From Candidatus Latescibacterota bacterium (GTDB taxonomy: Bacteria > JAAXHH01 > JACQVL01): 5,666 bases of DNA. Shown piece by piece: positions 157 to 5,663 of the stretch. The stretch is taken from the NCBI GenBank assembly GCA_016209865.1, contig JACQVL010000348.1:1-5666 (forward strand), given 5' to 3'. Position 1 is the stretch's first letter; every line of letters starts with the position of its first letter. A model generated the notes under the pieces. The model was not told the origin of the DNA and made no database searches. It saw only the letters and a program-made list of their open reading frames with translations. The translations under genes were made by a program, and so were the position numbers.

Positions 157-172
157 AGAGTGAAGAGTGACG
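157..172. repeat. Heptamer tandem repeat, AGAGTGA type (2 copies plus partial)
   Basis: Two exact copies of AGAGTGA (157-163 and 164-170) are followed by CG. On the minus strand this reads TCACTCT repeated, just upstream of the putative ATG at 147. It is short, and supported mainly because similar 7-nt-period arrays occur at the other gene boundaries in the window. Confidence 0.5.
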
Positions 173-250
173 AAAAAGACCTTCTCTTCTCTCATCAGTC
201 GGAAAATCCCGCCATTTCTCGACTGTCCTCAAAGTATGTAGAAGTTTTTT

Positions 251-268
251 ACTGATCACTGACCACTG
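251..268. repeat. Heptamer tandem repeat, ACTGAYC type (about 2.5 copies)
   Basis: ACTGATC (251-257), ACTGACC (258-264) and ACTG (265-268) form a 7-nt-period array starting a few bases beyond the stop codon of the cyclic-nucleotide-binding gene. Read on that gene's strand it includes GGTCAGT and TCAGTAAAA. The same words occur just after the stop codon of nadE (5575-5585) in the same orientation relative to the gene. Confidence 0.55.
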
Positions 269-274
269 CCTTGC

Positions 275-748
275 TCACCGCGACCACAGCAGCTCGTTCC
301 GCAGCCAGAGGTTGGTGCTGCGGAGCCGCGCGGACAGGACAGTGGCCAGGTTGCGCATGATGATGTAGCCGATCCGTGGCTGTGCGTCCATCACGCGGCG
401 GAGGTCATCGCTCGTGATCTCCAGGAGAACGGAGGCCTCCAGCGCGCGCGCCGCGGCAGAGCGCGGGGAGCCGTCGACGAGCGAGATTTCGCCGAAGACC
501 ATGCCAGGGACGGCTGTGGCGAGGCGCTCCGTCTGATGGACCAGCCGGTCGGGGAGCGTCACCTCGAGGCTGATGCGCCCGTCGCAGACGATATACAACT
601 CTCGCCCCCGGCTGGCCTCCTCGAAGATTTCACGCCCCGTCTTCACCCGTCGTTCACGACAGAGCGGCGCGATGGCCTGCAGCTCTTCGTCGGTAAGCCC
701 CTCAGCCAATGGAGTCTGGCGGAGTATCTCGACAACCTCGATGGCCAT
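275..748 (-). CDS. Stand-alone cyclic nucleotide-binding domain protein (Crp/cap-type sensor domain)
   Basis: A complete 157-residue protein, almost entirely one cNMP-binding domain. Residues 6-30 form the N-terminal helices (hydrophobic 'TPLAEGLTDEELQAIAP'). Residues 31-110 form the beta-roll, with 'LYIVCDGRISLEV' as the central strands. The phosphate-binding cassette is at 85-99, FGEISLVDGSPRSAA, with the conserved Gly-Glu (86-87) and the Pro-Arg-Ser (95-97) whose Arg would contact the cyclic phosphate. Residues 112-150 form the C helix region. There is no helix-turn-helix after it, so this is not a Crp/Fnr DNA-binding regulator. It is more likely a sensor or docking subunit, with the ligand (cAMP, cGMP or none) not decidable from sequence. 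The ATG at 748 is chosen because a perfect AAGGAGGT sits 8 nt upstream. The gene lies 47 nt downstream of the diguanylate cyclase gene on the same strand and is probably co-transcribed with it. Its partner is unknown. Confidence 0.9.
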   Translation of the reverse strand: MAIEVVEILRQTPLAEGLTDEELQAIAPLCRERRVKTGREIFEEASRGRELYIVCDGRISLEVTLPDRLVHQTERLATAVPGMVFGEISLVDGSPRSAAARALEASVLLEITSDDLRRVMDAQPRIGYIIMRNLATVLSARLRSTNLWLRNELLWSR

Positions 749-756
749 AGCGACTG

Positions 757-764
757 ACCTCCTT
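757..764 (-). promoter_or_regulatory. Strong Shine-Dalgarno site for the cNMP-binding protein
   Basis: On the minus strand the sequence is AAGGAGGT, complementary to the 16S rRNA 3' end over 8 bases, with 8 nt to the ATG at 748. It fixes the start codon and predicts efficient translation independent of the upstream gene. Confidence 0.85.
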
Positions 765-795
765 ACGTGCGATGAGACGCTTCCTTTGAACGGCT

Positions 796-1983
796 CTATT
801 TAGTTGTCCGGTGCCGTACCGCTTCATCCTGACTGAGCAGTTGTTCGACCAGCAGCCAGTCCATCGAGTCTCGCTCGACCATCCGCATCACCGCCTGCGA
901 AACCCCTGACTGATCAGCTTCGACACCGATGACGTTCCCGGAGAGGGTGATCGAATCCCCGGAAACCGGCAGAGTGAGGGCGACCTCGAGCATCTGATCG
1001 ACCGTGACCGGGATGGAGACGGCCACCTGGAACCGGTGATGCCCGATCGTCTTCTTCGGGGCTCCGGACGCCCACTCGACAGGACGAATCGACTGGATCA
1101 TGTCGGCGGGGATGGGACTGACTTCATCCTGGTACAGCAGGTCAAGGTACACCCGATTCTTGCCTTCGCGCTTCGCTAAGTACAACGCCTGATCGGCCGC
1201 CTCGATCAGGTGCTCGGGGGTCCTGGTATCGCCCCCCCGATATTCCGCGATGCCCCCCGAGGTGGTAATCTGAATCCCCTCCGGCGGACCGGATGGCATC
1301 TGCGTCGCCGTGACTGCGAACGCTCGACGAATCCGTTCGGCCACGACCAGCGCGTCAGACCGGGTCGTCGACGGGAGCAGGGCGAGGAATTCTTCCCCCC
1401 CATACCGGCCGACGACATCCGTCCCGCGTGTATACTGGAGCAGACAGGCGGCAAACGTTCGCAGCACCGCATCCCCCGCCAGATGCCCGTACTGGTCGTT
1501 GCATTGCTTGAAAGAGTCCAGATCAAACAGGATGATCGCGCCGCCACCGCCGTACCGCTTGCCTTTCTGGACTTCCCAGGTCACCTGCTCCCGGATGTAC
1601 CCGGTGTTGTACAGCCCGGTCAGACCATCCCGGATGGCCGCACGCGCCATCTGTTCGTAGCTCCTCACCTCCATCACTTTGGGGTGACGGATGTAGTGTT
1701 TGACCGACGTCACGTAATCGTGCAGGGCCATGGGGAGATTCACCGGCCTCGCAAGACGGGTCGAGAGCGTCTCCGTATACTGCCAGACGGCATCCCAGAG
1801 GACTTTCGCGTCGTGTGGCGACATCTCGAGAGATGTCAGGACGTGGATGATCTCGGCATACGCCGTCTGCCCGAACCGGCGAGCTAACTGGGCCACAGTA
1901 TCATGGAGTTTCTCGTTATTCGTGCTCTCCTCGATGGCGTGGAGCGTCCGCTCGTGCAACGTCAACCGGTCACGGTCAGCCAT
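796..1983 (-). CDS. GGDEF diguanylate cyclase with PilZ-like C-terminal tail
   Basis: A 395-residue soluble protein with no membrane segment or signal peptide, predicted to condense two GTP into cyclic di-GMP in the cytoplasm. Residues 1-110 are a mostly helical N-terminal region that I do not recognise. The GGDEF domain covers about 115-282, starting with the usual RDGLTGLYN (118-126). It has metal-binding FDLDSFKQCND (153-163, Asp154), GHLAGDAVLR (166-175), the catalytic GGEEF at 195-199 and the C-terminal KREGKNRVY (271-279). An intact inhibitory-site motif RGTD lies at 186-189, nine residues before GGEEF, so product feedback inhibition is expected. Residues 285-395 form a beta-rich tail resembling the second half of a PilZ barrel but without its ligand motifs. 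The start is the ATG at 1983, preceded by AGGGGGAGG. The gene begins 14 nt after the outer-membrane protein's stop codon, which suggests translational coupling. Confidence 0.93.
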   Translation of the reverse strand: MADRDRLTLHERTLHAIEESTNNEKLHDTVAQLARRFGQTAYAEIIHVLTSLEMSPHDAKVLWDAVWQYTETLSTRLARPVNLPMALHDYVTSVKHYIRHPKVMEVRSYEQMARAAIRDGLTGLYNTGYIREQVTWEVQKGKRYGGGGAIILFDLDSFKQCNDQYGHLAGDAVLRTFAACLLQYTRGTDVVGRYGGEEFLALLPSTTRSDALVVAERIRRAFAVTATQMPSGPPEGIQITTSGGIAEYRGGDTRTPEHLIEAADQALYLAKREGKNRVYLDLLYQDEVSPIPADMIQSIRPVEWASGAPKKTIGHHRFQVAVSIPVTVDQMLEVALTLPVSGDSITLSGNVIGVEADQSGVSQAVMRMVERDSMDWLLVEQLLSQDEAVRHRTTK

Positions 1984-1987
1984 GGCG

Positions 1988-1996
1988 CCTCCCCCT
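1988..1996 (-). promoter_or_regulatory. Shine-Dalgarno site for the diguanylate cyclase, abutting the upstream stop codon
   Basis: The minus strand reads AGGGGGAGG with about 4 nt to the ATG at 1983. It starts one base after the TAA (1998-2000) of the outer-membrane protein gene. Ribosomes ending there would sit on this site, as in translational coupling. Confidence 0.7.
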
Positions 1997-1997
1997 T

Positions 1998-3623
1998 TTA
2001 CAACTCCCGGTACAGGCGAACGACGACGCGGGGTCCGACATCAGCATCATGCAGGTTCTGGGCGATGAACACGCTGGCGTAGAGGAGCCGGCTGGAGAGG
2101 GCGACCCCCGCGCCCGCATCGCTCCGAAGGTCGGAGAACCCATCGGGCAGAGGCAGGCCGAGGTGCGGACTGACCCGCGACCGGAGCGCCGGATGGGTGA
2201 GGACGTTCCGTCCGGACGCGGCCGAGAAGAACGCCGTCCCGGCGTCGAAGAACGGGATGAGTTCGACCTTCCAGGAGACGAATTGCTGGCGGCGCAGGGT
2301 CGTGACCGGGAGCCGGTATTCCGCGTTGAAGACGAGCAGCCGGTCCCCAGCATACTCAAAATCCCCGAATCCCCGAAGACCGCCGGCCGCGCCCAGCACG
2401 TACGACCGCTGGAGCGGGAGCGGCGCTCCTGAGGCCGCCAGTTTTGCCCGGACGTTCAGATGGTGGCCTCGCCAGGCGTTGTACCGGCTGATCGTCACAT
2501 CGAACCGGGTGAACCTGAAATCTCCCCCCAACCCTTTCTCGGCCCGCTCCAGTTCCGCGTCGAACGACCAGGCGTTGTCCGGCGGCACATCAGACGGCCG
2601 GGTGTCATACCGCGCCCGCCAGACCAGGCCGTGGATCGCCCCTTCATCGATATCCGGGTTGGCGCGGAACGCCCGATTCCCCCCGAACAGGGTGAACGGA
2701 GACCGGACCGCCAGGGTCCGGAAGGTGTCGTGACGGTACTCCATCCGCACCATGGCGTGCTGGCCCACCCGTTGTTCCGCATACGCAGTGAAGCCGGACC
2801 GGAGGAAGTAGTTGTAGAAATCGTTCTTCGTCCCGAACGCGGCGAGAGAGTTGTGTAGCGGCGGTACCTGCCACCGGTCGTTCGTGTCCGTCATCTTGTA
2901 CCCTTCAATCCCGAGCCGCAAGGGGTGCCGCACGAAGAACGGCTCCACCACCCCCGCTTTAAAGCCGAGAAACCCGTGATCGTTCGGCTCGGTCGGGACG
3001 GTGATCGTCCCGGTCAGGCTGGGACGCCCGGTCTCCTTGAGGGGTACCACTCTCAAGGTCAGGTCGACCTCATGCCCCCGCACCCGGCTGAACCGCCAGC
3101 CGCTCGGTCTGATTGTCCATTCGACCCCGGACGGCTGGACCGGGCTGAGCCGGAGGCTGCCGGTCTTCGTCCGCGAGACGGTATACTCCCCGGCGTAGAC
3201 GACGCGCTGTCCCTGAACGGTCGCCCGGCGCGAGGCGTAAATCTGGCCGCCGATGACTTTCACATCCCCGGTGACGACCGACCCGCCCTGCAACGAGGCG
3301 CTCCCGTTGATGACGAAGAGGTCTCCATCGACCGTCCCGCTGACGTACAAGTTCCCGTGGAGAATGACGAGCGGCCCCGCCACCGCCGTCCCCCGGCCGA
3401 TGCTCACATCCCCCAGCCGGACCGTCGTCCCGTCCCGGTTGATCAGCGCCTCCAGGTCGTGCGGGGCAATCTGCGCGTGTCTCACCGCGCTGTCAGCCGG
3501 CGCCGTCTGGCGCAGTGGACTCGCCGCATGGGCGGCCTGGATGGTAATGAGGACGCAAAGAATGAATGCGGTCTTAGACAGAGTGCGGATTACGGAGTGC
3601 GGAGTGCGGATTGATACATCCAT
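1998..3623 (-). CDS. Outer-membrane protein: bactofilin-like beta-helix joined to an Omp85/BamA-type barrel
   Basis: A 541-residue exported protein, counting from the ATG at 3623. Residues 1-33 form a signal peptide with basic residues, a hydrophobic core FILCVLITI and an Ala-His-Ala cleavage site. Residues about 68-140 form short beta-helix repeats such as GNLYVSGTVDGDLFVINGSA and VTGDVKVIGGQI, resembling bactofilins/polymer-forming proteins. Residues about 140-215 form a beta-rich linker. Residues about 216-541 form a barrel of alternating amphipathic strands. The Omp85-family hallmark GGLRGFGDFEYAGD is at about 414-427, with LRGF matching the (V/L)RGF loop-6 motif, followed by LLVFNAEYRLP. 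No POTRA repeats are seen, so a BamA-like insertase role is doubtful; a surface anchor, secretion pore or scaffold is equally possible. The last residues, VVVRLYREL, end in Leu rather than the usual aromatic. A TTG nine bases upstream (3632) is in frame, but it is too close to the Shine-Dalgarno. Confidence 0.85.
   Translation of the reverse strand: MDVSIRTPHSVIRTLSKTAFILCVLITIQAAHAASPLRQTAPADSAVRHAQIAPHDLEALINRDGTTVRLGDVSIGRGTAVAGPLVILHGNLYVSGTVDGDLFVINGSASLQGGSVVTGDVKVIGGQIYASRRATVQGQRVVYAGEYTVSRTKTGSLRLSPVQPSGVEWTIRPSGWRFSRVRGHEVDLTLRVVPLKETGRPSLTGTITVPTEPNDHGFLGFKAGVVEPFFVRHPLRLGIEGYKMTDTNDRWQVPPLHNSLAAFGTKNDFYNYFLRSGFTAYAEQRVGQHAMVRMEYRHDTFRTLAVRSPFTLFGGNRAFRANPDIDEGAIHGLVWRARYDTRPSDVPPDNAWSFDAELERAEKGLGGDFRFTRFDVTISRYNAWRGHHLNVRAKLAASGAPLPLQRSYVLGAAGGLRGFGDFEYAGDRLLVFNAEYRLPVTTLRRQQFVSWKVELIPFFDAGTAFFSAASGRNVLTHPALRSRVSPHLGLPLPDGFSDLRSDAGAGVALSSRLLYASVFIAQNLHDADVGPRVVVRLYREL
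3581..3612. repeat. Heptamer tandem repeat inside a coding region, GAGTGCG type (about 4.5 copies)
   Basis: Consecutive 7-mers are GAGTGCG (3581), GATTACG (3588), GAGTGCG (3595), GAGTGCG (3602) and GATT (3609). The array falls within the first codons of the outer-membrane protein gene and encodes the Ile-Arg-Thr-Pro-His-Ser-Val-Ile-Arg-Thr stretch of the signal peptide N-region. A 7-nt period shifts frame with each unit, so a change in copy number that is not a multiple of three would alter the reading frame. Confidence 0.8.
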
Positions 3624-3634
3624 GATTCGCAATT

Positions 3635-3650
3635 CCCTTTGCAGAAAGGG
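3635..3650 (-). other. Small leader hairpin overlapping the Shine-Dalgarno of the outer-membrane protein gene
   Basis: CCCTTT (3635-3640) and AAAGGG (3645-3650) are a perfect 6-bp inverted repeat around a 4-nt loop. In the minus-strand transcript the 3' arm is AAAGGG, the likely ribosome-binding sequence, about 11 nt before the ATG at 3623. The hairpin could modestly lower translation initiation. No ligand-binding structure is apparent, so this is not called a riboswitch. Confidence 0.4.
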
Positions 3651-3668
3651 CTATCGGGCGACACTTCC

Positions 3669-3698
3669 ATTCTACCGCAATATGTCATCCATTGTCAA
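3669..3698 (-). promoter_or_regulatory. Sigma70-like promoter for the outer-membrane protein / diguanylate cyclase operon
   Basis: On the minus strand, a perfect TTGACA (-35, 3698 down to 3693) and TAGAAT (-10, 3674 down to 3669, 5/6 match) are separated by 18 bp. An A-rich stretch just upstream of the -35 could act as an UP element. Transcription would start near 3662, giving a leader of about 39 nt to the ATG at 3623. Confidence 0.75.
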
Positions 3699-3751
3699 GA
3701 GCTTTTTCTTAGGCGCCCGCTCCTGGCGGCGGACATTTACACGAAAATCCC

Positions 3752-3780
3752 TTGACAACCCCTCTCATACGACCTACCAT
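3752..3780 (+). promoter_or_regulatory. nadE: Sigma70-like promoter for nadE
   Basis: A perfect TTGACA (3752-3757) and TACCAT (3775-3780, 4/6 match to the -10) are separated by an ideal 17 bp. Expected initiation is near 3787, so the leader of about 50 nt includes the whole AATCCAA-type heptamer array. The two divergent -35 boxes are 53 bp apart, leaving room for a shared regulator, but no clear operator is visible between them. Confidence 0.65.
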
Positions 3781-3792
3781 CAAAGTAAAGGT

Positions 3793-3820
3793 CCAGAATC
3801 CAAAATCTAAAATCCAAAAT
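3793..3820 (+). repeat. Heptamer tandem repeat, CCAAAAT type (4 copies), in the nadE leader
   Basis: Four units with 7-nt period: CCAGAAT (3793), CCAAAAT (3800), CTAAAAT (3807) and CCAAAAT (3814), ending just before the GGGAG ribosome-binding site. Very similar AATCCAA arrays are known as short tandemly repeated repetitive sequences in cyanobacteria and appear in other large bacterial genomes. Its A-rich, unstructured nature would leave the start region accessible. Confidence 0.85.
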
Positions 3821-3821
3821 C

Positions 3822-3826
3822 GGGAG
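3822..3826 (+). promoter_or_regulatory. nadE: Shine-Dalgarno site deciding the nadE start
   Basis: GGGAG lies 9 nt before the ATG at 3836 and supports that codon as the start, over an in-frame TTG at 3752 that lies within the promoter -35 box. Confidence 0.65.
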
Positions 3827-3835
3827 TCCTCGCCC

Positions 3836-5572
3836 ATGAGGACGCTGCGCATCGCCTTAGCCCAGATCAACACGACGGTGGGCGATCTGGACGGCAACAC
3901 GGAGAAAATCCTGAACGGCATCGCCGCCGCCCGGCAGCACGGCGCGGACCTGGTCGCCTTCCCGGAACTGGCGATCACCGGGTATCCGCCGGAGGATTTG
4001 CTGTTCAAGCCGCGGTTCATCGACGGGAATCTGGATCGCCTGCGCGAGATCGTGCGGGCGACGGACGACATCGCGGCCATCATCGGGTTCGTCGACCGGG
4101 GGGACGACATCTACAACGCCGCGGCGATCGCCTGTCACGGCCAGCTCGCCGGCGTCTACCACAAGGCGTTCCTGCCCAATTACGGGGTGTTCGATGAGAA
4201 CCGGTATTTCCAGGCCGGGACGTCGTTCCCCGTCTTCCGCCTCAACGAGGTGACGATCGGAGTCAACATCTGCGAGGACATCTGGTACCCCGACGACCCG
4301 ATGAAAACGCAGGTGCTGGACGGCGCGGCGGAGGTGATCGTCAACATCTCCGCCTCCCCGTACCACGCGGGCAAGGGACAGTTCCGGGAGACGATGATCG
4401 CCACGCGGGCGGCCGACAACGCGGTGGTCGTCGCCTTCGCCAACCTGGTCGGCGGCCAGGACGAGCTGCTGTTCGACGGCCGGAGCCTCATCTTCAACGA
4501 GACGGGCGACCTCCTCGCCCGCGGGAAGCAGTTCGAGGAAGACTTAGTCGTGGCCGACCTCGACATCGAGGCTGTCTTTCGCTGGCGGCTCCACGACCCG
4601 CGCCGCCGGAAGGCGAAGGACGGCGTGCAGGCCACCAGCGATCGCGTGCCGGTGATCGACCTCGGGGAAGTCCGGCATGCCGCGCGGGCCCGTCTCACCC
4701 CGCCCGTCGCCGTCACCCTGGAGGCCGACGCCGAGGTCTACACCGCCCTCTGCCTGGGGACGCGGGATTATGTGATGAAGAACGGGTTCAAGGGCATCGT
4801 CGTCGGGGTCAGCGGCGGGATCGACTCCGCGATGGTGACGACGATCGCGGTCGACGCGTTGGGGCCGGACAACGTCGTCGGGGTGACGATGCCGTCGCAG
4901 TATTCGTCGGATGAGACGAAGACGGATGCCTACCGGCTGGCGGAGAACCTCGGCATTCGTTTTCTGACGATCCCGATCAAAGACACGTTCGACACCTACC
5001 GGCGGGTGCTGGCCGAGGAATTCAAGGGACTGAAGGAAGATGTGACCGAAGAGAATCTCCAGGCGCGCATCCGGGGCAACCTCTTGATGGGGCTGTCCAA
5101 CAAGTTCGGCTGGCTGGTGCTGACGACCGGGGACAAGAGCGAGATGAGCGTCGGGTTTGCGACGCTGTACGGGGACATGTCGGGCGGGTTCGCGGTCATC
5201 AAGGACGTGTACAAGACGCGGCTGTATGCGCTCGGACGGTACCGGAACGGGCGAGCCGGGCACGCCCTCATCCCTGAGGGCATCCTCACCCGCGAGCCAA
5301 GCCCGGAGCTGAAACCCAACCAGAAGGCGTCCGATACCCTGCCGCCGTATCCGGTGCTCGACCCCATCCTGCGGGCGTACGTCGAGGAGGACAAGTCGCT
5401 CGACGAGATCGTGGACATGGGCTTCCCCGAAGCGACCGTCCGGGATGTCATCCGGCGGGTGGACCGGAGCGAGTACAAACGCCGTCAGGCCCCGCCCGGC
5501 ATCAAGATCACCACACGAGCGTTCGGGAAAGACCGGCGATTGCCGCTGACGAACCGGAATGTGTATTACTGA
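3836..5572 (+). CDS. nadE: Glutamine-dependent NAD+ synthetase
   Basis: A 578-residue cytoplasmic enzyme catalysing the last step of NAD+ synthesis: deamido-NAD+ + ATP + glutamine to NAD+ + AMP + PPi + glutamate. The N-terminal nitrilase-type glutaminase domain (about 1-270) shows the full catalytic triad: Glu44 in FPELAITGYPPEDL, Lys110 in HKAFLPNYGVFDE and Cys146 in NICEDIW. The C-terminal synthetase domain (about 290-578) has the ATP pyrophosphatase loop SGGIDS (326-331) and the conserved LTTGDKSEMSVGFATLYGDM (429-448). It also contains REPSPELKPNQKASDTLPPY (486-505). Both domains appear intact and the length is usual for the two-domain form. Start: ATG 3836, with GGGAG 9 nt upstream. An in-frame extension to a TTG at 3752 would begin inside the promoter and translate repeat DNA, so it is rejected. 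The gene is transcribed alone, divergently from the envelope/signalling operon. Confidence 0.97.
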   Translation: MRTLRIALAQINTTVGDLDGNTEKILNGIAAARQHGADLVAFPELAITGYPPEDLLFKPRFIDGNLDRLREIVRATDDIAAIIGFVDRGDDIYNAAAIACHGQLAGVYHKAFLPNYGVFDENRYFQAGTSFPVFRLNEVTIGVNICEDIWYPDDPMKTQVLDGAAEVIVNISASPYHAGKGQFRETMIATRAADNAVVVAFANLVGGQDELLFDGRSLIFNETGDLLARGKQFEEDLVVADLDIEAVFRWRLHDPRRRKAKDGVQATSDRVPVIDLGEVRHAARARLTPPVAVTLEADAEVYTALCLGTRDYVMKNGFKGIVVGVSGGIDSAMVTTIAVDALGPDNVVGVTMPSQYSSDETKTDAYRLAENLGIRFLTIPIKDTFDTYRRVLAEEFKGLKEDVTEENLQARIRGNLLMGLSNKFGWLVLTTGDKSEMSVGFATLYGDMSGGFAVIKDVYKTRLYALGRYRNGRAGHALIPEGILTREPSPELKPNQKASDTLPPYPVLDPILRAYVEEDKSLDEIVDMGFPEATVRDVIRRVDRSEYKRRQAPPGIKITTRAFGKDRRLPLTNRNVYY

Positions 5573-5587
5573 GCGGTCAGTAAAATC

Positions 5588-5608
5588 AGTGACGAGTGAC
5601 AAGTGACG
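5588..5608. repeat. Heptamer tandem repeat, AGTGACR type (3 copies)
   Basis: AGTGACG (5588), AGTGACA (5595) and AGTGACG (5602) are three consecutive 7-mers, starting 16 nt after the nadE stop codon. The preceding bases GGTCAGTAAAA (5575-5585) share words with the array after the cyclic-nucleotide-binding gene. Confidence 0.75.
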
Positions 5609-5626
5609 AGTAAATCAGAGGGTGTC

Positions 5627-5646
5627 ATTCCCGCGAAAGCGGGAAT
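5627..5646. repeat. REP-like palindrome, ATTCCCGC-GAAA-GCGGGAAT
   Basis: A perfect 8-bp inverted repeat encloses a GAAA tetraloop, embedded in GTCATTCCCGCGAAAGCGGG plus AATCCAG. It matches the ATTCCC-N8-GGGAAT pattern known as dRS3 in Neisseria, and similar extragenic palindromes are widespread in other bacteria. It lies 54 nt after the nadE stop. As RNA it forms a stable stem with a GNRA loop and could protect or end the nadE transcript. Confidence 0.8.
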
Positions 5647-5663
5647 CCAGTCGGCCTGGTTTT
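5627..5663 (+). terminator. Possible nadE terminator: REP stem, a 4-bp stem, then T4
   Basis: The 8-bp REP stem (5627-5646) is directly followed by CCAG (5647-5650), a 5-nt loop, CTGG (5656-5659) and TTTT (5660-5663). The short stem alone is weak and the T-run is brief, so intrinsic termination is only plausible. The window ends three bases later, and what follows could change the interpretation. Confidence 0.3.

Follow-up and report, generated by a model that had tools for sequence, protein, structure and literature searches.

Since 2007 an excess of tandem repeats with a 7-nt unit has been on record, with no agreed explanation, and each of the two studies that treat such repeats in detail deals with one unit family (PMC4679880, PMC4692102). 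The closest known case to the arrays described here, which lie in a 5,666-nt stretch of DNA from Candidatus Latescibacterota (contig JACQVL010000348.1, referred to as the window), is that of the GGGNATC repeats of Xanthomonas and Nostoc (Rehm et al. 2015, PMC4692102), which have a 7-nt unit, are mostly intergenic and comprise about four units. Within 50 bp of coding sequences their G-rich strand is the coding-sense strand after stops and the non-coding strand before starts, and each Xanthomonas genome holds 70–75 convergent inverted pairs, with the single or paired type usually kept between relatives (PMC4692102). The short tandemly repeated repetitive (STRR) sequences of filamentous cyanobacteria are usually 7-bp repeats, intergenic and hairpin-capable, as at hupS-hupL, and a role in transcript stabilization or translation coupling has been suggested for them (PMC2670836). 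The TAACTGA direct repeats of Beggiatoaceae (MacGregor 2015, PMC4679880) are intergenic heptamer arrays of one unit, found mostly just upstream of starts, with 169 sets in direct and one in indirect orientation. The arrays of the window belong with these known heptamer repeats, and G-quadruplex formation is not needed for them.

The window is a single contig (C315) of a draft genome (3.75 Mb in 356 contigs, 83% complete, GC content ~62%) and contains five heptamer arrays:

155 to 170, G-rich on the plus strand: GAAGAGT, 2.3 units, GAAGAGTGAAGAGTGA; points into the intergenic region, away from a minus-strand open reading frame (ORF) at the left
251 to 268, G-rich on the minus strand: ACTGAYC, 2.6 units with one mismatch, ACTGATCACTGACCACTG; just downstream of the stop of a cyclic-nucleotide-binding gene
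3586 to 3610, G-rich on the plus strand: GGAGTGC, 3.6 units, CGGATTACGGAGTGCGGAGTGCGGA; at the 5' end of an Omp85-like gene and pointing away from that gene
3792 to 3821, G-rich on the minus strand (GATTTTG): AATCCAA, 4.3 units, TCCAGAATCCAAAATCTAAAATCCAAAATC; 14 nt upstream of the NAD synthase start
5588 to 5611, G-rich on the plus (sense) strand: AGTGACG, 3.4 units, AGTGACGAGTGACAAGTGACGAGT; 15 nt after the NAD synthase stop

A first-pass annotation had reported these five arrays; all are present, with coordinates that differ by a few bases, and the AGTG/CACT core that it ascribed to four of them is correct. The span of 3581–3612 that it gave for the third includes one imperfect unit, and the array found there occupies 3586–3610. 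It had placed the arrays at gene ends or starts, which is where all five lie, although 3586–3610 falls inside a predicted ORF, at the 5' end of the gene. At a score of at least 8, the five period-7 arrays compare with 0.2 expected from dinucleotide shuffles made per segment (maximum of 2 in 400), and each of the other periods from 4 to 13 gives 0 or 1 array. Two of the five have fewer than three copies, and these are unremarkable alone and are counted only as members of the set. As in the STRR sequences, the units are tandem heptamers in at least 2–4 copies with an intergenic bias, and an AATCCAA array is common to two cyanobacterial plasmids; unlike in that case, the organism is a different one and the strand rule and class matching are quantified here.

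Period, strand and pairing of the arrays in the genome

Genome-wide counts rest on 121 sequences (120 contigs and the window; 1.105 Mb, 29% of the genome) and on a codon-usage ORF caller that yielded 905 genes with approximate start codons. Hundreds of gene boundaries in this bacterium have 7-base tandem repeats. Between genes there are 279 arrays of period 7, compared with 2, 5, 31 and 17 at periods 5, 6, 8 and 9, a comparison that the first-pass annotation had proposed and that comes out in favor of period 7 by a wide margin. Periods 10, 11, 12 and 13 gave 3, 4, 2 and 4 arrays, and period 14 merely repeats period 7. A further 77 period-7 arrays lie in predicted coding sequence, which amounts to a strong intergenic bias in a genome that is 85% coding. 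The 356 arrays can be sorted into some eight large unit classes, named on the G-rich strand, plus smaller ones: ACGAGTG (124 arrays), ATTTTGG (49), CGGTGGT (45), CGGGGTT (32), AAGGACG (25), AGGGGTC (19), AGTGGGC (14) and ATTGCGG (13). The earlier view that the different unit sequences are not copies of one element is supported; the phenomenon is genome-wide, intergenic and of period 7, with many unit sequences under a common rule. Within a class, the same variant unit recurs at the same place across many loci, as in the AGTGAC-G/A/G order of 26 arrays, the commonest of its class and the one found at 5588–5611; the AATCCAA array at 3792–3821 is one of 58 genome matches to its 25-nt form. Classes are nested in some regions. 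Arrays were also seen at or near contig ends (L045, L049, L063, L066 and L005), which suggests that assembly was broken at the repeats and that they are undercounted. Stop codons in all frames were rejected as the cause of period 7, given that the G strand is free of stops in 74 of 268 long arrays.

The G-rich strand runs 5' to 3' away from the nearest gene, much as in the GGGNATC repeats. Within 60 bp, 155 arrays fit this rule and 12 run against it at stops (p ~1e-32), 96 fit and 21 run against it at starts (p ~1e-12), and all five arrays of the window obey it. Array-free intergenic ends have no G bias after stops (188 versus 178). Arrays begin 3–7 nt past the stop or overlap it in phase (at −5, −12 and −19, seven apart), and those upstream of genes end 14–21 nt before the start, where the ribosome-binding site would follow. 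The strand rule and this sharp placement near coding edges, together with the recurrence of exact arrays whose variant unit keeps its place, would suit binding sites on DNA of a protein reading in steps of 7 bp, for nucleoid organization or gene insulation, the orientations marking the two edges of the intergenic region. We consider such sites very unlikely, because one protein would hardly read so many unrelated unit sequences under the same rule and because class matching, described below, is seen only for facing arrays in one intergenic region and weakens at longer distances.

The classes also bear on the G-quadruplex (G4) elements proposed for the GGGNATC repeats, whose four G-tracts would form them (PMC4692102). 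Some of them contain GGG (CGGGGTT, AGGGGTC and AGTGGGC) and the arrays often have about four units, but the dominant classes ACGAGTG, ATTTTGG and CGGTGGT lack it. Classes without GGG follow the strand rule as well as those with it, the ratio of arrays that fit to those that do not being 95:10 for ACGAGTG, 39:1 for ATTTTGG, 33:6 for CGGTGGT, 17:3 for AAGGACG and 9:0 for ATTGCGG. Whereas the GGGNATC repeats form one family per genome and have been read as G4 structures, many of the large and smaller classes here are unable to form a G4. As a general explanation G-quadruplexes are already refuted, and the probability we would leave to them is negligible.

Two arrays in the same intergenic region nearly always face each other, and only the '><' order is common. 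Such convergent inverted pairs are also known from the GGGNATC repeats; here, in contrast to that case, the arms are class-matched pair by pair. Facing pairs are of the same class in 54 of 73 cases against 13.6 expected, the largest value in 2000 shuffles being 24, and facing arrays less than 200 bp apart match in 75% of cases against a background of ~18%. Because facing arrays are usually of the same class, they are best read as complementary arms of a hairpin, a pairing that the TAACTGA repeats lack. The ability to form a hairpin, the trait reported for cyanobacterial STRR sequences, is accordingly predicted for those 54 pairs and for neither of the two facing pairs of the window. When one arm was swapped for another class, predicted RNA folding weakened from a mean of −55 to one of −29 kcal/mol and was worse in 51 of 51 cases. 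All other orientations and distances gave class matching near background, including arrays that flank one gene (14 of 53), so that the matched unit is the intergenic region and not the gene. Gene cassettes bounded by inverted arrays were rejected on the same count. In the few divergent regions of the sampled sequence, the arms matched in none of two cases on opposite starts and in two of three on one side.

Phages, plasmids and relatives

A scan of viral contigs for the AGTGACG array gave 19 contigs, and for one phage family, which has genes for a head protease and the tail, there are relatives at various distances. The phage contigs with junction hairpins (IMG/VR) are L273, L281, L297, L303–L306 and L312, and facing pairs in the family are matched in 15 of 20 cases against 4.7% for random pairs. 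The junction that follows the head gene has AGTCGGG arms in L304 and L306, of 9 and 4 units, respectively, with a similar spacer; the same junction has AGTGGCG arms in L305, TCAGCTA arms in L312 and AGTGGGC-type arms in L297, and is without arrays in L298, L299 and L300 and in more distant relatives. The head genes of L304, L305, L306 and L312 are 91–94% identical, and arm class does not track gene similarity. One junction has a 103-nt hairpin in one of L273 and L281 where the other has ~20 nt. Across the orthologous junctions of eight contigs, 24 comparisons were of different and 8 of the same class, and 35 set a pair against no array, with some rows being reciprocal repeats, so that these counts are not independent. 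The presence of matched pairs of unlike class at the same junction means that both arms change together. Class replacement at orthologous junctions, seen in the phages, is a further difference from the GGGNATC repeats.

An exact 32-nt array of the AATCCAA class, AATCCAAAATCCAAAATCTAAAATCCAAAATC, odd unit included, is present in a Dolichospermum plasmid, and a Sphaerospermopsis plasmid has 31 of its 32 bases. In these plasmid arrays (L291:3680–3711 and L292:20001–20031) the odd unit is placed as in this genome. The AATCCAA arrays adjoin genes in the cyanobacterial plasmids as the strand rule predicts; of the gene-near arrays of these plasmids 16 fit and one does not, and facing pairs are matched in three of three cases. 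Plasmid searches gave weak, chance-level matches only with the AGTGACG array and no match with GGGGACT. Among 15 other genomes of the phylum, the AATCCAA class was found in one (G011) and the AGTGACN class in none. A relative of the same order (G013) has period-8 arrays as commonly as period-7 arrays, under the same strand and pairing rules (8 fit and 1 against; two of two facing pairs matched). An 8-nt version that obeys the rule implies that 7 is preferred and not fixed, and it tells against the process preserving 7 nt that the first-pass annotation had suggested, if taken strictly. In that genome (L211 and L207–L209), 8-nt arrays GTGATTTG and GGCAGGTG adjoin 7-nt arrays built on almost the same word (CAATCAC). 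Period 7 also leads in other phyla, where 80 loci, sampled solely by their NAD synthase gene, contain 31 intergenic arrays of period 7 and at most 8 of any other period.

Polymerase slippage in 7-nt steps, with 7 nt as the polymerase contact, was put forward by Mrazek et al. 2007, as that proposal is reported in PMC4679880 and PMC4692102; arrays would grow from local sequence, and intergenic DNA would merely tolerate the growth. The generality of the period-7 excess in these 80 unrelated loci, the difference in copy number between the close phages L304 and L306 within one class and spacer, and the resemblance of arrays in phase with the stop codon to local growth all speak for it. Variation of copy number between strains, with a switch in expression, is the mark of phase-variable simple sequence repeats; here copy number differs between related phages. 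Slippage does not, however, predict the same-class inverted pairs or the strand rule, nor the recurrence of one variant order across many loci and in a second phylum, nor the joint replacement of both arms, and it is also faced with an 8-nt version under the same rule. These inverted pairs, the recurrence of same-variant arrays and the replacement or absence of whole pairs in phages likewise tell against the plain slippage of the first-pass annotation. Slippage alone is already insufficient as the cause, and we regard it as improbable.

Alternatively, each class could be a dispersed mobile hairpin, similar to a miniature inverted-repeat transposable element (MITE) or a repetitive extragenic palindromic (REP) sequence, that inserts whole into tight gene junctions. 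The ACTGCCC family has spread in this way, its ~15 copies in the genome being entire hairpins that share a conserved spacer, and both the presence or absence of whole pairs at phage junctions, where empty junctions measure ~20 nt, and the nesting of classes in some regions fit this explanation. In contrast, the spacers of 35 of 51 pairs match nothing else in the sequence sampled while the arms stay near consensus, which argues that arm and spacer are not copied together; the other spacers hold REP elements. In the genome, 83% complete, no match was found to the REP-associated Y1 transposase (PF01797), for which the control was positive in 5 of 14 genomes, or to a reverse transcriptase (PF00078), as would serve telomerase- or reverse transcriptase-templated repeat addition. 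The arrays resemble REP, BIME and REPIN elements as dispersed intergenic palindromes near stop codons, and differ from them in that the arms are tandem heptamers of many classes, most spacers are unique and no REP-associated tyrosine transposase (RAYT; Y1_Tnp) was detected in the genome at that completeness. On balance we find mobile hairpins a rather unlikely explanation. A dispersed palindromic family with a conserved spacer and 1–4 heptamers per arm, GGCAGTAGGCAGT-ggacgggggaacggcttct-ACTGCCCACTGCCC, was observed in L014, L017, L023, L027, L035, L057, L080 and L227.

Genes and other repeats of the window

Besides the five arrays, the window contains the following features:

275 to 748, minus strand: cyclic-nucleotide-binding domain protein (PF00027)
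796 to 1983, minus strand: GGDEF diguanylate cyclase (PF00990)
1998 to 3623, minus strand: Omp85-superfamily outer-membrane protein, start codon uncertain (PF01103)
3836 to 5572, plus strand: glutamine-dependent NAD+ synthase (PF00795 and PF02540)
5627 to 5648, plus strand: REP-like palindrome ATTCCCGCGAAAGCGGGAATCC, adjoining the last array, with 133 genome copies (68 + 65)

The GGDEF gene is flanked by junctions of 47 and 14 bp, neither of which has an array, and a search of the window against Rfam 15 gave no match above the gathering score. The array at 3586–3610 lies within the first ~15 codons of the Omp85-like gene; over 3576–3623 the GAGTGCG repeat makes up the first codons of that gene (the signal-peptide n-region) and is probably a translated 7-nt array. 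The REP-like palindrome is often found within the spacers of heptamer pairs. The nearest relative of the NAD synthase, at 69% identity, is in L112, a metagenome-assembled genome of Latescibacterota, and its locus carries an 8-fold CACGAAC array.

Proposed hairpin elements

With moderate confidence, we favor the reading that the arrays are arms of intergenic hairpin elements of many classes, whose two arms come, go and are replaced jointly. The period, the strand rule, the class matching, the positions and the turnover of whole pairs in phages are seen in the sequence itself. A typical element would start with a G-rich array (usually 16–33 nt, ~2–4.5 units) that lies 3–7 nt after a stop codon or overlaps it, followed by an unrelated spacer of ~20–140 nt and then by a reverse-complement array of the same class, whose end lies 14–21 nt upstream of the next start codon or, in convergent regions, a few nt past the stop. 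Unit number would change by 7-nt steps, and lone arrays would be half-elements or relics. The arms may form a long stem in the mRNA between the stop codon and the ribosome-binding site, protecting or separating the neighboring messages, as suggested by the placement, by the predominance in co-directional and convergent regions and by the known hairpins of cyanobacterial STRR sequences (PMC2670836). The identity of class without shared unit order suggests that arms could be kept matched as one is rewritten from the other arm or from another locus, by template switching or conversion between inverted copies; slippage and reshuffling would then vary the units.

Several observations weigh against the hairpin reading. 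The two facing pairs of the window have arms of unlike class, as in the arrays at 155–170 and 251–268, which lie 80 bp apart, and their predicted folds are no better than those of shuffles (z of −0.77 for this pair and −1.16 for the other); because the classes differ and the folds are ordinary, the arrays of the window are better seen as single or relic arms. The likeness of unit order is 0.760 for the arms of true pairs and 0.758 for random arms of the same class, from which it follows that pairing is by class and that base-by-base pairing is not being kept. The same comparison gave no support to a recent inverted duplication of one arm. In the C-rich arm the variant letters have no preference for wobble pairing. 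Single arrays occupy 137 intergenic regions, few of which hide a partner (19 have a 10-base inverted match). The phages follow the strand rule less closely (59:16) and have '<>' pairs, of the TCAGCTG class; the looser fit is due to units such as TCAGCTG that are nearly symmetrical in G and C. Finally, the hairpin reading leaves the period of 7 nt without an account.

The first-pass interpretation is thus upheld in part, and it had seen neither the strand rule nor the pairing. What is new here is the presence of many classes in one genome, the class-matched arms and, in phages, the concerted replacement of class. It is possible, although we put it forward only tentatively, that heptamer hairpins are one widespread class of element in bacteria and phages, with an arm sequence that is nearly free except for being of period 7 (sometimes 8) and arm-matched, and that a dedicated process writes both arms at the edges of coding sequences. 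The occurrence of many classes under one rule, together with the joint replacement of arms in phages, rules out both G-quadruplexes and simple slippage as causes in general, and suggests that what is selected or copied is the hairpin. The puzzle of these repeats, so far known in fragments from cyanobacteria and Xanthomonas, thereby becomes testable, with Xanthomonas and Nostoc as culturable hosts.

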